Part shown: piece by piece, positions 27,137 through 30,695 of the stretch
How the letters are laid out: each line of letters opens with the position of its first letter
How positions within the stretch are numbered: position 1 is the first letter of the stretch
Source of the DNA: Labedella populi
GTDB taxonomy: Bacteria > Actinomycetota > Actinomycetes > Actinomycetales > Microbacteriaceae
DNA length: 64,000 nucleotides
Assembly: GCF_004078655.1 (NCBI RefSeq)
Contig: NZ_RZNC01000002.1
Coordinates: 124,001 to 188,000 of the forward strand
Reading direction: 5' to 3'
Made by a program: the position numbers and the translations under genes
Notes under the pieces: generated by a model
The model's input: only the letters and a program-made list of their open reading frames with translations
What the model was told of the DNA's origin: nothing
The model's database searches: none

Positions 27137-27185
27137 CGTCGAAATGGAGCCGAGAGGCTCCCGACGAGCACGCCTGGAGGCGATG

Positions 27186-28916
27186 ATGGCCCAGAATTCT
27201 GTATCCCGGTCCAACAAGATCGGTCCGGAGGAGCGAGCCGCGGCGATCGAGGCTCTGAAGTCCAAAGAGCTCGACATTCTCGTCGTCGGTGGCGGGATCG
27301 TGGGCACGGGTGCCGCGCTCGACGCCGTCACGCGCGGTCTCTCGACGGGGCTCCTCGAGGCCCGGGACTGGGCCAGCGGCACGTCGAGCCGGTCGTCGAA
27401 GCTCGTCCACGGCGGAATCCGTTACCTCGAGCAACTGGACTTCGGTCTCGTGCGCGAAGCGCTCATCGAGCGCGGTCTCCTCCTGCAGCGGATCGCACCC
27501 CACCTCGTCAAGCCCGTGCGCTTCCTCTACCCGCTCACGAAGCCCGTGTGGGAGCGCTTCTACATCGGTGCCGGCATGTTCCTTTACGACATCTTCAGCT
27601 ACTCCGGCGGCCGCCCGCCCGGTGTCCCGCACCACCGCCACCTGACGAAGCGCCAGATCCAGCGCTCGATCCCGTCGCTCGCCGCGAATGCCTTCACCGG
27701 GGGGCTCACGTATTACGACGCCCAGGTGGACGACGCCCGCTACGTGTCCTCGCTCGCCCGCACGGCATCGTTCTACGGCGCGCACGTCGCGAGCCGCGTG
27801 CGAGTGGAGGGTTTCGTGAAGGTCGGCCAGCGCGTCGTCGGAGTCGAGGCGCACGATCTGCAGTCGGGGGAGCGCTTCGAGATCCGGGCGAAGCAGGTCG
27901 TGAACGCGACCGGCGTGTGGACGGATGACACCCAGGCGATGGTCGGCGAGCGCGGCCAGTTCAAGGTGCGTGCGTCGAAGGGTGTGCACTTGCTCGTGCC
28001 GCGGGATCGCTTCCAGTCCACGATGGGGATGATCCTGCGCACGGAGAAGAGCGTGCTCTTCGTCATCCCGTGGGGTCGCCATTGGATCATCGGGACGACG
28101 GACACCGACTGGAACCTCGACAAGGCGCACCCGGCAGCGACGGCGGCGGACATCGACTACATCCTCGAGCACGTCAACCAGGTGCTCGCCGTCCCGCTCA
28201 CGAGGGAGGACGTCGAGGGTGTGTACGCGGGGCTGCGGCCTCTGCTCGCCGGTGAGAGCGATCAGACCTCGAAGCTCTCGCGTGAGCACATCGTGACGCA
28301 CTCGGTCCCGGGGCTCGTCGTCGTCGCCGGCGGGAAGTGGACGACCTACCGGGTCATGGCGAAGGACGCGATCGACGCTGCCGCCGACGCCCTGGACGGG
28401 AAGATCCCGCCGTCGACGACGCAGGACATCGCGCTCCTCGGAGCCGAGGGTTACCAGGCAGCGTGGAACAAGCGCGGCAAGATCGCGCGGGCATTCGGCG
28501 TGCACAAGGTCCGTATCGAGCACCTCCTCAACCGCTACGGCGTGCTGACCGACGAACTGCTCGACCTCGTGAGGTCGCGGCCGGAGCTCGCGGAGCCGCT
28601 GCCGGGCGCCGACGACTACATCCAGGCGGAGGTCGTCTACGCGGCCTCGCACGAGGGTGCGCTCCACCTCGAGGACGTGCTGGCTCGACGGACGCGTATC
28701 TCGATCGAGGCGTGGGACCGAGGCGTCTCCGCGGCACCCGTGGCGGCGGGCCTCATGGCCGAGGTGCTCGGCTGGGACGAGGAGCGCACGGAGAGCGAAG
28801 TGCAGAACTACCTCAAGCGCGTCGCCGCCGAGCGCCTCTCGCAGGAGCAGCCGGACGATGCCGCAGCGGATCGCGTCCGCCTCGAGGCCCCGGACATCGC
28901 CTCCGTCACCGAATAA
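27186..28916 (+). CDS. glpD: Glycerol-3-phosphate dehydrogenase (FAD-dependent, aerobic)
   Basis: Membrane-associated flavoenzyme oxidising glycerol-3-phosphate to DHAP and feeding electrons to quinone. The 576-aa protein has the N-terminal FAD site VVGGGIVGTGAALDAV, then SSRSSKLVHGGIRYLEQ, NATGVWTD, and GGKWTTYRVMAKDA. The C-terminal domain (about 390-545) is the GlpD_C helical region. ATG 27186 preferred over the adjacent ATG 27183 because GGAGG then lies at a better distance. A TAGCGT hexamer (27134-27139) overlaps the guaB3 stop and may be its -10. The nearby GDPD enzyme (36075) could supply glycerol-3-phosphate. Confidence 0.95.
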   Translation: MAQNSVSRSNKIGPEERAAAIEALKSKELDILVVGGGIVGTGAALDAVTRGLSTGLLEARDWASGTSSRSSKLVHGGIRYLEQLDFGLVREALIERGLLLQRIAPHLVKPVRFLYPLTKPVWERFYIGAGMFLYDIFSYSGGRPPGVPHHRHLTKRQIQRSIPSLAANAFTGGLTYYDAQVDDARYVSSLARTASFYGAHVASRVRVEGFVKVGQRVVGVEAHDLQSGERFEIRAKQVVNATGVWTDDTQAMVGERGQFKVRASKGVHLLVPRDRFQSTMGMILRTEKSVLFVIPWGRHWIIGTTDTDWNLDKAHPAATAADIDYILEHVNQVLAVPLTREDVEGVYAGLRPLLAGESDQTSKLSREHIVTHSVPGLVVVAGGKWTTYRVMAKDAIDAAADALDGKIPPSTTQDIALLGAEGYQAAWNKRGKIARAFGVHKVRIEHLLNRYGVLTDELLDLVRSRPELAEPLPGADDYIQAEVVYAASHEGALHLEDVLARRTRISIEAWDRGVSAAPVAAGLMAEVLGWDEERTESEVQNYLKRVAAERLSQEQPDDAAADRVRLEAPDIASVTE

Positions 28917-28921
28917 CCCAA

Positions 28922-28967
28922 AGAGCTACACCCGCACGAGGGCGCCAGGTCTACCGGGCGCCCTCGT
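28922..28967 (-). repeat. Left inverted repeat and hairpin framing the DUF559/AbiEi-like gene
   Basis: Starts 5 bp after the glpD stop. An outer tail AGAGCTACACCCGC (28922-28935) is followed by an 11-bp hairpin (28936-28946 / 28957-28967). The first 26 bp (28922-28947) recur exactly, inverted, at 30041-30066. The hairpin may serve as terminator for glpD and the convergent gene, whose stop lies in its loop. Confidence 0.8.
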
Positions 28968-29898
28968 TGCCGCCCAGGCGCCGTCGGGGAGCTCCTGCGC
29001 GACTGACGAGGTCGAGGAGCCGAGGAGCGGGCCCGGTGAGATCGTCCCAGGTCGCGCGCACGACGCGGAGCCCCACGGCTCTGAGGCGGTCCTCGCGGCG
29101 CTTCTCGCGCCAGACCACGTCCTCAGGGCTGCCACCGGTGTACTCGAGAGTCGCATATTTCCGGAAGCCGTCGAACTCGAGGACGATCCCGGCGTCCAAC
29201 CAGGCGAAGTCGACGTACCCGACGAGTCCGTCGCTGTCGTCGATGCGATGTTGAAGGGTCGGAGCGACGAACCCGGCATCGTGAAGGAGCAGGCGGACGA
29301 ACGATTCTCCGCCGTTCGCGGCGTCGGGGGCGACGATAGCGAGCAGTGCCCGCGACTGGTGCGAACCGCGACCGGTTCCGAGTCGACGATCCTCCTCGAG
29401 CAGGCGGTCGGTGGTCGTGTGGCCGAGTCGCACGGCGTGATCCGCCATGGACAGTGCGGATGCGCGGGAACCGGTCCGCGCGACGTCGACGATCGTCCGC
29501 TCGAGACTCGTGCAGCGGACACCGTCGATCACGTCGACCTCCGGCGGGTGGGATGTGCGGTGGCGCGTGTAGACGCCGCTCGATCGCCCGCCGCCACGTT
29601 CGGAGACGACGGTGTGGACGGTCTCGGGCCAACCGCCCACGATCGGGAGGCGTCTCATCGCGGCCGCCGAGTAGTGGCTGAGAGTCGGTGTCGTGGGAGA
29701 GCAGGCGAGAGTCGCGTGTATGAAGGCGCGATAGCGCTCATCATGACCCATCGCTGCCCAGTCGCTCGTCGGAATGTACACGCCGCGACGTACGCGCTGC
29801 AGGTCGAGTCTCGTGTCGGTCGGCCGCGCGCGGCCACCCGTGCGTCGTGAGGAGGACAGCTCGAAGGGGATGTGCGGTGATTCGAAGAGTGATGGCAT
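28951..29898 (-). CDS. AbiEi-antitoxin-like / DUF559 nuclease-fold protein
   Basis: A 315-aa protein of a type frequent in actinobacterial accessory regions. The N-terminal half (about 25-150) resembles the AbiEi-type wHTH/antitoxin region (RVRRGVYIPTSDW, TPTLSHYSAAAMRRLPI, GVRCTSLERTIVDVAR). The C-terminal part (about 205-300) resembles the DUF559/Vsr-like PD-(D/E)XK fold: VDFAWLDAGIVLEFDG gives Asp and Glu in the expected places, then KRREDRLRAVGLRVVRATWDDL. No partner toxin gene is adjacent. ATG at 29898; no strong ribosome site. A perfect inverted repeat frames it. Role could be defence, DNA repair or a selfish element; not decided. Confidence 0.7.
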   Translation of the reverse strand: MPSLFESPHIPFELSSSRRTGGRARPTDTRLDLQRVRRGVYIPTSDWAAMGHDERYRAFIHATLACSPTTPTLSHYSAAAMRRLPIVGGWPETVHTVVSERGGGRSSGVYTRHRTSHPPEVDVIDGVRCTSLERTIVDVARTGSRASALSMADHAVRLGHTTTDRLLEEDRRLGTGRGSHQSRALLAIVAPDAANGGESFVRLLLHDAGFVAPTLQHRIDDSDGLVGYVDFAWLDAGIVLEFDGFRKYATLEYTGGSPEDVVWREKRREDRLRAVGLRVVRATWDDLTGPAPRLLDLVSRAGAPRRRLGGNEGAR

Positions 29899-30021
29899 GC
29901 CGGGAGGATGGCGGTGCTCGTCGCCGGCGTGTCATGAGTCGGCGGAGATGGGTGTGGATGGCGTGCCGGTGACGGTGTGAACGACGGGTTCGCATTCGCT
30001 GCGAGGGCACCTCCTTGGTAG

Positions 30022-30066
30022 TGAGGGCGCTCGTTGTATGTGGCGCCCTCGTGCGGGTGTAGCTCT
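30022..30066 (+). repeat. Right inverted repeat and hairpin framing the DUF559/AbiEi-like gene
   Basis: A hairpin (GAGGGCGC 30023-30030 with GCGCCCTC 30043-30050) followed by the outer tail GCGGGTGTAGCTCT (30053-30066). Bases 30041-30066 are the exact reverse complement of 28922-28947. Between the gene start (29898) and this repeat I see no other gene; a minus-strand reading across 29741-30253 looks like a shadow. Confidence 0.8.
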
Positions 30067-30133
30067 GTGGGGGAGTTCGCGCGCGGCGTACGGCGTGAGG
30101 CGGCGCGGCGGACGGGCGGCGGCGGCGGGCGGG

Positions 30134-30167: not shown

Positions 30168-30695
30168 ATGGTCGACGTTCGGAGGGTCAAGCTCCCCGGT
30201 GTCGGTGTCCTGCACTCCTTCATCACCGACGACGGCGGCAAGGTCGGAGTCATCGCCCATCGTTCCGGTCACAGCGACCTCATCACCTTCTCGGACGATG
30301 AGGACGGCTCCGACGCCACGAAGGTATCGCTCCGGCTCTCGGAGGACGAGGCGCACACCCTCGCCGAACTCCTCGGCGGAACGCGGATCACCGAGTCGCT
30401 GACGGCGCTCGATCAGCTCCCGGGGCTCTCGATCGACTGGTTCACGGTCGACTACGAGGACCACATCGCGGGGCAGCCCCTCGGCGATCCCGCTGAGCAC
30501 GGCATCATCGGCCTGACGGTCGTCGCGGTCGTCCGCGGCGAGTCGACGAACCCGGCACCCGCGGCGGACTTCCGTGTCTTCCCCGGCGACATCCTCGTCG
30601 TGGCCGGCAGTCCCGAGAAGGTGGCGAAGGCGTTCTCGTTCTTCCGCACGGGAGAGGCGAAGAAGGCCCCCGTCGACGTGTCGCCCGGGAACTAG
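30168..30695 (+). CDS. khtT: TrkA-C domain regulatory subunit of a cation:proton antiporter (KhtT-like)
   Basis: A 175-aa soluble protein. The C-terminal half (about 95-165) is a TrkA-C (RCK-C) domain: GIIGLTVVAVVRGESTNPAPAADFRVFPGDILVVAGSPE. The N-terminal half is a KhtT-type extension. It lies 3 nt upstream of a CPA2 antiporter, the KhtT-KhtU arrangement known for K+/H+ exchange. It probably senses a nucleotide or pH and gates the antiporter. Confidence 0.8.
   Translation: MVDVRRVKLPGVGVLHSFITDDGGKVGVIAHRSGHSDLITFSDDEDGSDATKVSLRLSEDEAHTLAELLGGTRITESLTALDQLPGLSIDWFTVDYEDHIAGQPLGDPAEHGIIGLTVVAVVRGESTNPAPAADFRVFPGDILVVAGSPEKVAKAFSFFRTGEAKKAPVDVSPGN

Follow-up and report, generated by a model that had tools for sequence, protein, structure and literature searches.

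Gene P0001, which lies in a 64-kb stretch of Labedella populi DNA (contig NZ_RZNC01000002.1, positions 124,001 to 188,000; this whole stretch is called the window below), is framed by two inverted copies of a hairpin-bearing repeat that is dispersed through the genome. Judged from sequence, it belongs to a mainly actinobacterial family of AbiEi/Vsr-like proteins, and many members have their own palindromic repeat as a partner. The comparisons reported here cover framing of the genes, dispersal of the repeats in two families of bacteria, dialects of the repeat that match the nuclease, a preference for gene 3′ ends, and the presence or absence of a whole unit in related genomes. We regard a partnership between such a protein and its own repeat as quite probable. 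Whether it works in the manner of the repetitive extragenic palindromes (REPs) and their REP-associated tyrosine transposases (RAYTs), with an unrelated enzyme, seems to us evenly balanced, and active spread of the repeat by the nuclease is put forward tentatively.

Layout of the P0001 locus

The first-pass annotation of the window, made from its letters and open reading frames (ORFs), had described exact 26-bp inverted repeats with hairpins around a single gene, starting 5 bp after glpD, and this layout was confirmed. Each strand of the window has a single occurrence of the 26-mer (starts 28922 and 30041), which opens a hairpin repeat of ~73 bp; the two copies are inverted, with their heads outward and the one gene between them. 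These arms are identical at 55 of 73 positions, and both fold better than 200 of 200 shuffles. The stem of the left arm is the adjacent palindrome; the predicted fold of the right copy pairs its first arm with its third. The left 26-mer begins 5 nt past the stop codon of the glpD-like flavin adenine dinucleotide (FAD) oxidoreductase gene, and the last codons and stop of P0001 fall inside the left repeat. In the features below, R1 is the repeat model described in the next section.

28917..28989, plus strand: the repeat's left copy, made up of head, hairpin arms 1 and 2 and a third arm, lying right past the stop of the upstream gene; R1 E 9.6e-21, fold z −4.22
28922..28947, plus strand: exact 26-bp inverted repeat, left arm; exact match
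28951..29898, minus strand: P0001, 315 aa, AbiEi-like N-terminal part and putative Vsr/PD-(D/E)XK-like C-terminal part
29999..30071, minus strand: the repeat's right copy, in inverted orientation, within the stretch from which P0001 and the TrkA_C gene diverge; R1 E 1.3e-19, fold z −3.02
30041..30066, minus strand: exact 26-bp inverted repeat, right arm; exact match
27183..28916, plus strand: context, FAD-dependent oxidoreductase with a glycerophosphate-oxidase C-terminal domain (glpD-like); Pfam DAO, DAO_C
30168..30695, plus strand: context, TrkA_C-domain gene (khtT-like), divergent from P0001; Pfam TrkA_C

As the first-pass annotation had it, no known transposase was found in the unit. None of the five neighbours tested (DAO, IMPDH, TrkA_C, Na_H_Exchanger, SURF1) is an AbiEii (DUF1814) toxin gene, and an Rfam scan of the window gave no match at the gathering threshold.

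A dispersed repeat family in Labedella

With up to three mismatches allowed, the 26-mer was found at 30 places in the genome and its reversed control at none, so its recurrence is not due to chance. In four genomes of the window's genus (G000, G001, G002 and G003), a model of the whole repeat (R1, built from G000 copies alone) gave 73, 114, 63 and 35 matches at E ≤ 0.01, counts that are lowered by this choice of copies and by the scoring of at most 150 candidates per genome, and raised by the appearance of some palindromic places on both strands. A family-level draw of 150 genomes from 85 genera, with at most 32 candidates scored per genome, yielded three genomes with an R1 match, all Labedella and G002 not one of them, among the matches listed. 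The search of the genome and its relatives suggested by the first-pass annotation thus uncovered a dispersed family; copies were also found beside many unrelated genes, which tells in part against the mobile unit it had in mind.

The consensus of 31 copies consists of a conserved unpaired head GCTACACCCG, followed by CGAGGGCGCCA, a variable loop, GCGCCCTCG, a linker and, as the third arm, another GCGCCCTCG; the plan is one forward and two reverse half-sites. No compensating changes were seen in the stem, and therefore it is the sequence that is conserved, not pairing alone. An explanation purely at the RNA level is unsupported, given the lack of both compensating stem changes and an Rfam match in the window.

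The copies favour gene 3′ ends. Among 150 copies read, 114 have a same-direction gene upstream with the head facing its stop codon, and the distance past the stop is most often 4 nt (25 copies), 5 nt (24) or 1 nt (10). By context, 67 lie between convergent genes, 69 between co-directional and 14 between divergent ones. The genes are those called by our own codon-bias finder; in two species it overlooked P0001. The genes near the repeats are ordinary and of mixed families, and housekeeping genes such as those for a Der-type GTPase, DnaE and NusB are found upstream of copies. Long intervals between paired repeats were considered as transposon bodies and rejected: of 10 interval proteins tested, 7 belonged to ordinary families and 3 had no hit. 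Hairpin strength at ordinary gene ends, scored with no shuffled sequences for comparison, is not counted as evidence.

Three side observations concern these sites. TAA stops are about ten times commoner at gene ends with a repeat 4–5 nt past the stop (27 of 49, vs 33 of 592 elsewhere), and the excess persists when one copy is drawn per orthologous group (about 10.9 of 21.1). A hemerythrin-domain gene lies inside inverted P0001-type repeats (L025:4761-6040, G000:C10), and framing by this repeat is therefore not limited to the nuclease. Past the repeat at L210, downstream of a gene (G000:C1), stands a second palindrome, GAGCTTGTCGAAG...CTTCGACAAGCTC, which we take to be a common dispersed hairpin of related genera.

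Framing of P0001 homologues in other bacteria

Homologues of P0001 outside the window are frequently framed as well. In a first pass, inverted arms scoring at least 17, a threshold fixed only after that pass, were present in 17 of 38 homologue loci, while the maximum in 114 control windows from the same loci was 15. In a second pass at the same threshold, with neighbouring ORFs as the control, a repeat common to both sides, inverted or direct, was present at 27 of 40 homologue loci vs 1 of 110 of these ORFs (Fisher p 7e-19, the loci not being independent), and inverted repeats alone in 19 of 40 vs 0 of 110. The 40 loci include one L. phragmitis orthologue and one from a metagenome-assembled genome labelled Spirochaetaceae; 12 of 52 loci had been excluded for short flanks or partial matches.

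The inverted arms are mostly 61–93 bp long, and their starts lie between −35 and 104 nt relative to the stop codon. Their sequences vary by lineage, but the arms in Geodermatophilus and Blastococcus follow the same plan, with an outer head GATCAGG..CCTGATC and one forward and two reverse half-sites, GTCCTGGCTCA. In this survey, framing goes with the protein family.

Dispersal and dialects in Geodermatophilaceae

A model of the Geodermatophilaceae arms (R2) gave 94, 59, 67, 32 and 70 matches at E ≤ 0.001 in five gene-bearing genomes, under the same candidate limit and both-strand listing as R1 and with no random-hairpin control outside Labedella. Counted by hand at E ≤ 1e-15, these amount to 36, 6, 25, 12 and 21 separate places (G151 to G155) among the matches listed. 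Among 29 copies read, a same-direction stop codon lies within 120 nt ahead of the head in 16, and at 10–22 nt in 15 of these.

One of these genomes, the Geodermatophilus genome G152, carries two nuclease paralogues with differing arms. Among the matches listed, 10 of its 14 dispersed copies have GTCCTCC, a half-site in an arm of the first paralogue; of the other four, two resemble the arms of the second paralogue and two the repeat of other species. The same word occurs in 0 of 23 copies from the other four genomes, 8 of which are gene-framing arms (p 3e-6). Homology to the second nuclease paralogue (L248, G152:C30) is split in two pieces, and that gene may therefore be frame-broken.

The P0001 protein

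The first-pass annotation had proposed an antitoxin-like part joined to a nuclease fold, and this was borne out as an AbiEi part with a Vsr-type fold behind it. Searches with Pfam, NCBIfam and PHROG profiles gave no hit for P0001; its one profile match is to the PADLOC AbiEi model (E 2.2e-13). Among 37 homologues at E ≤ 0.1, Pfam AbiEi_1 was matched in 6 and AbiEi_4 in 4, P0001 belonging to neither set. Pfam also returned no DUF559 hit for P0001, and PF04480 had no match genome-wide. In the predicted structure (predicted local distance difference test score, pLDDT, 86.2), the first part matches the fold of the AbiEi antitoxin 6y8q (Z 11.0, root-mean-square deviation 6.0, 156 residues aligned). 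The second part aligns to the catalytic domain of I-Bth0305I (Z 10.3, deviation 2.6, 95 aligned) and to Vsr 1cw0 (Z 8.9, deviation 3.5, 105 aligned), and residues E198, D230, E241, D243 and K247 are invariant in 37 of 37 aligned homologues. By sequence profile and structural model, P0001 is thus composed of an AbiEi-like part and a putative Vsr/PD-(D/E)XK-like nuclease part.

Orthologues of P0001 are 90% identical in G003, 65% in G001 and 60–66% over three frames in G002, where median protein identities are 94.7, 86.2 and 86.9%, respectively. This is 2 to 2.7 times the median rate of divergence and follows the species tree; we have accordingly dropped it as special evidence for co-evolution. 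The G002 orthologue (L144:6669-7614, G002:C1) is spread over three frames by two frame breaks, which may be decay or sequencing error. P0001 had no match in plasmid (E 1e-10) or phage (E 1e-5) collections.

Inverted repeats in their own promoters are binding sites of AbiEi proteins (PMC7319586), and the repeat upstream of P0001 therefore suggests that the gene could regulate itself through it.

Stable sites and changing dialects

The 150 Labedella copies form 86 orthologous groups, 11 of which are found in all four species and include both P0001 arms. The species differ in dialect: G000 and G003 have mostly CTACACCCG(CA), G001 and G002 mostly CTACTCCCG(AG). Head agreement is 0.70 between cross-dialect orthologues vs 0.81 between paralogues of one genome, while loop and linker agreement is 0.61 and 0.56 between those orthologues vs 0.55 and 0.51 between paralogues. 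Because the heads resemble paralogues more and the loops and linkers resemble orthologues more, the heads alter in concert at fixed sites.

Some sites have turned over. An inverted repeat pair between convergent genes in G000 is replaced by other intergenic DNA in G003, G002 and G001, and a strong ordinary hairpin stands after one gene in G003 where the other three species have the repeat. Facing the G000 pair, L209 (G001:C2) carries a long imperfect hairpin, TGAGGTG...CACCTCA, related words of which also occur in L212; this is perhaps another repeat family. Elsewhere, L029/L030 (G000:C13) and L150/L149 (G003:C14) are 99–100% identical in DNA and proteins, against a median protein identity of 94.7% for the two species, possibly through recent exchange.

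Sister units and possible movement

Two further types of paralogue, L033 and L032, are each accompanied by palindromes of their own. The L033-type gene occupies one locus in all four Labedella species. Additional copies of the two palindromes number 6 (L033-type) and 8 (L032-type) in 930 kb of Labedella DNA, 11 of the 14 near a stop codon, and by eye the six L033-type copies are spelled like the arms of their own species. Neither repeat gave a hit in the window.

The mobile cassette raised in the first-pass annotation is rejected, as a lone and recently moved unit, for P0001, which sits in place with both arms in all four Labedella genomes; no empty site was therefore found for it there. The search for empty sites succeeded with the sister unit L032, whose gene and both arms are present in G000 and G001 and absent from G003 and G002 with the flanks kept.

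Interpretation and alternatives

That the repeats are acted on by the nuclease encoded between them, one suggestion of the first-pass annotation, has become our leading reading, its steps being drawn from sequences and models. In such a partnership, the AbiEi-like part would bind the repeat half-sites and the Vsr-like part would nick or cut at the bound repeat. Binding and cutting together may have spread the repeats and made them alike, much the role that is ascribed to RAYT proteins in the case of REPs. The hairpins of copies just past stop codons probably act as transcript ends and would be kept for that.

Several results weigh against this reading. Foldseek gave no match at E ≤ 0.001 for P0001 (best 2.7e-3), and its two best candidates, Rv2827c (an AbiEi relative) and Vsr, miss that threshold. 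The divergence of P0001 tracks the species tree and is therefore, alone, no sign of special co-evolution with the dialects. The repeats, framing arms included, persist in G002 where the P0001 gene is frame-broken, and G003 retains an L032-type repeat without the L032 unit. As for framing, its score threshold was set late; 8 of the 27 framed loci reach the second-pass threshold as direct repeats only, which can arise from palindromes too; 13 of the 40 homologues are unframed, including 9 of 9 in Curtobacterium; and P0001-type repeats frame ordinary genes as well. Finally, the L032 empty sites show no clear target duplication, and the target duplications sought at the suggestion of the first-pass annotation were not seen by eye at L206/L207 or L214/L215, few sites in all.

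The alternative that fares best, which we still consider unlikely, is a family of terminators or other 3′-end elements maintained for the host, with the nuclease gene merely lying between two copies and not acting on them. The placement of the copies is what such a family would give: a same-direction gene upstream of 114 in 150, its stop 4 or 5 nt away for 49 copies and 1 nt away for 10, and housekeeping genes (Der-type GTPase, DnaE, NusB) among those preceding them. A strong ordinary hairpin can even stand in for a missing copy (L211, L209). What host maintenance leaves unexplained is why homologues so often stand between repeats (27 of 40, vs 1 of 110 neighbouring ORFs), each lineage with an unrelated one of its own, why the dialects of G152 exist, and why the unpaired head is conserved.

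A transposon-like unit, in which gene and terminal inverted repeats move jointly, the dispersed single copies being solo ends or miniature forms of it, is more improbable still. It would account for the arms around P0001 and around the Geodermatophilaceae genes, inverted, heads outward and close to the gene, and for an entire L032 unit present in G000 and G001 and missing from G003 and G002 with intact flanks. It fits poorly with P0001 and L033-type units that keep one locus in all four species, with the lack of a clear target duplication or of a plasmid or phage match to P0001 at the limits used, and with repeats that greatly outnumber the genes. A free-standing homing-like endonuclease, cutting empty repeats and copying its gene into them, is very improbable: the fold match to I-Bth0305I (Z 10.3) and the plentiful potential targets speak for it, but genomes hold few genes to dozens of repeats, orthologous units are fixed at one site, and the L032 empty site in G003 has no related repeat by eye.

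Relation to known systems

RAYTs are described as transposases that are present in one copy, passed on vertically and linked to a population of repeats (PMC8049555). REPs lie mostly downstream of genes, sometimes provide stop codons, and carry GTAG or CGTC as a tag at one of the palindrome's ends (PMC3733652). The Labedella system is similar in that its extragenic palindromes are dispersed, occur singly or as inverted pairs and lie near gene 3′ ends, and in that a low-copy, vertically kept gene is framed by the same repeat and matched to its class. It differs in the enzyme, since RAYTs are Y1 HUH proteins whereas P0001 is AbiEi/Vsr-like; the Y1 transposase domain (PF01797, E ≤ 0.001) was found in 0 of 4 Labedella genomes, with controls positive in 5 of 14. 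The foot of the Labedella hairpin also lacks a GTAG or CGTC tag: in the 31 copies TA never varies and CTAC, which reads GTAG on the opposite strand, hardly does, but it lies 7 nt from the stem. PMC3733652 reports CGTC REPs without a dedicated transposase and terminal inverted repeat (TIR) families that frame transposase genes. The Labedella repeat recalls these, but its hairpin is untagged and the framed gene is not a tyrosine transposase. With insertion sequences and miniature inverted-repeat transposable elements it shares terminal inverted repeats, but the P0001 unit holds no known transposase.

From AbiE type IV toxin-antitoxin systems come the N-terminal match by profile and fold and the precedent of binding to promoter inverted repeats (PMC7319586); P0001 differs in its C-terminal Vsr-like part and has no directly adjacent toxin gene. 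That part resembles Vsr, DUF559 and I-Bth0305I in predicted fold and invariant acidic residues, but P0001 has no Pfam DUF559 hit, is fused to an AbiEi-like part and is paired with repeats. Neisseria DNA uptake sequences are about 10 bp long and occur in thousands of copies, with dialects. Like the Labedella repeat, they are dispersed and dialect-bearing, and in closely spaced complementary pairs they can form terminators; the Labedella repeat differs in being about 73 bp long, in dozens of copies and framing a nuclease gene. Action of the uptake sequences as terminators is described in PMC2267715. In the open-access listings and abstracts covered, we found no pairing of AbiEi/Vsr or DUF559 proteins with dispersed repeats.

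Implications

A broader proposal, which we offer as conceivable and somewhat doubtful, is that there is a second, HUH-independent class of REPIN-like systems (REPIN, REP doublet forming a hairpin), above all in Actinobacteria. In it, AbiEi/Vsr nucleases would recognise, nick and spread their own repeat, with dialects that co-evolve, several pairs per genome, and copies at stop codons that join the ends of host genes.

If the partnership is real, the RAYT-REP system would not be the sole route to a long-lived genomic population of short palindromes, and an actinobacterial family so far only known as AbiEi-like would gain a testable substrate. Tests of specificity could then draw on several natural pairs of nuclease and target, two of them within a single genome. 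The partnership could also explain some of the dispersed 3′-end hairpin families of high-GC genomes.
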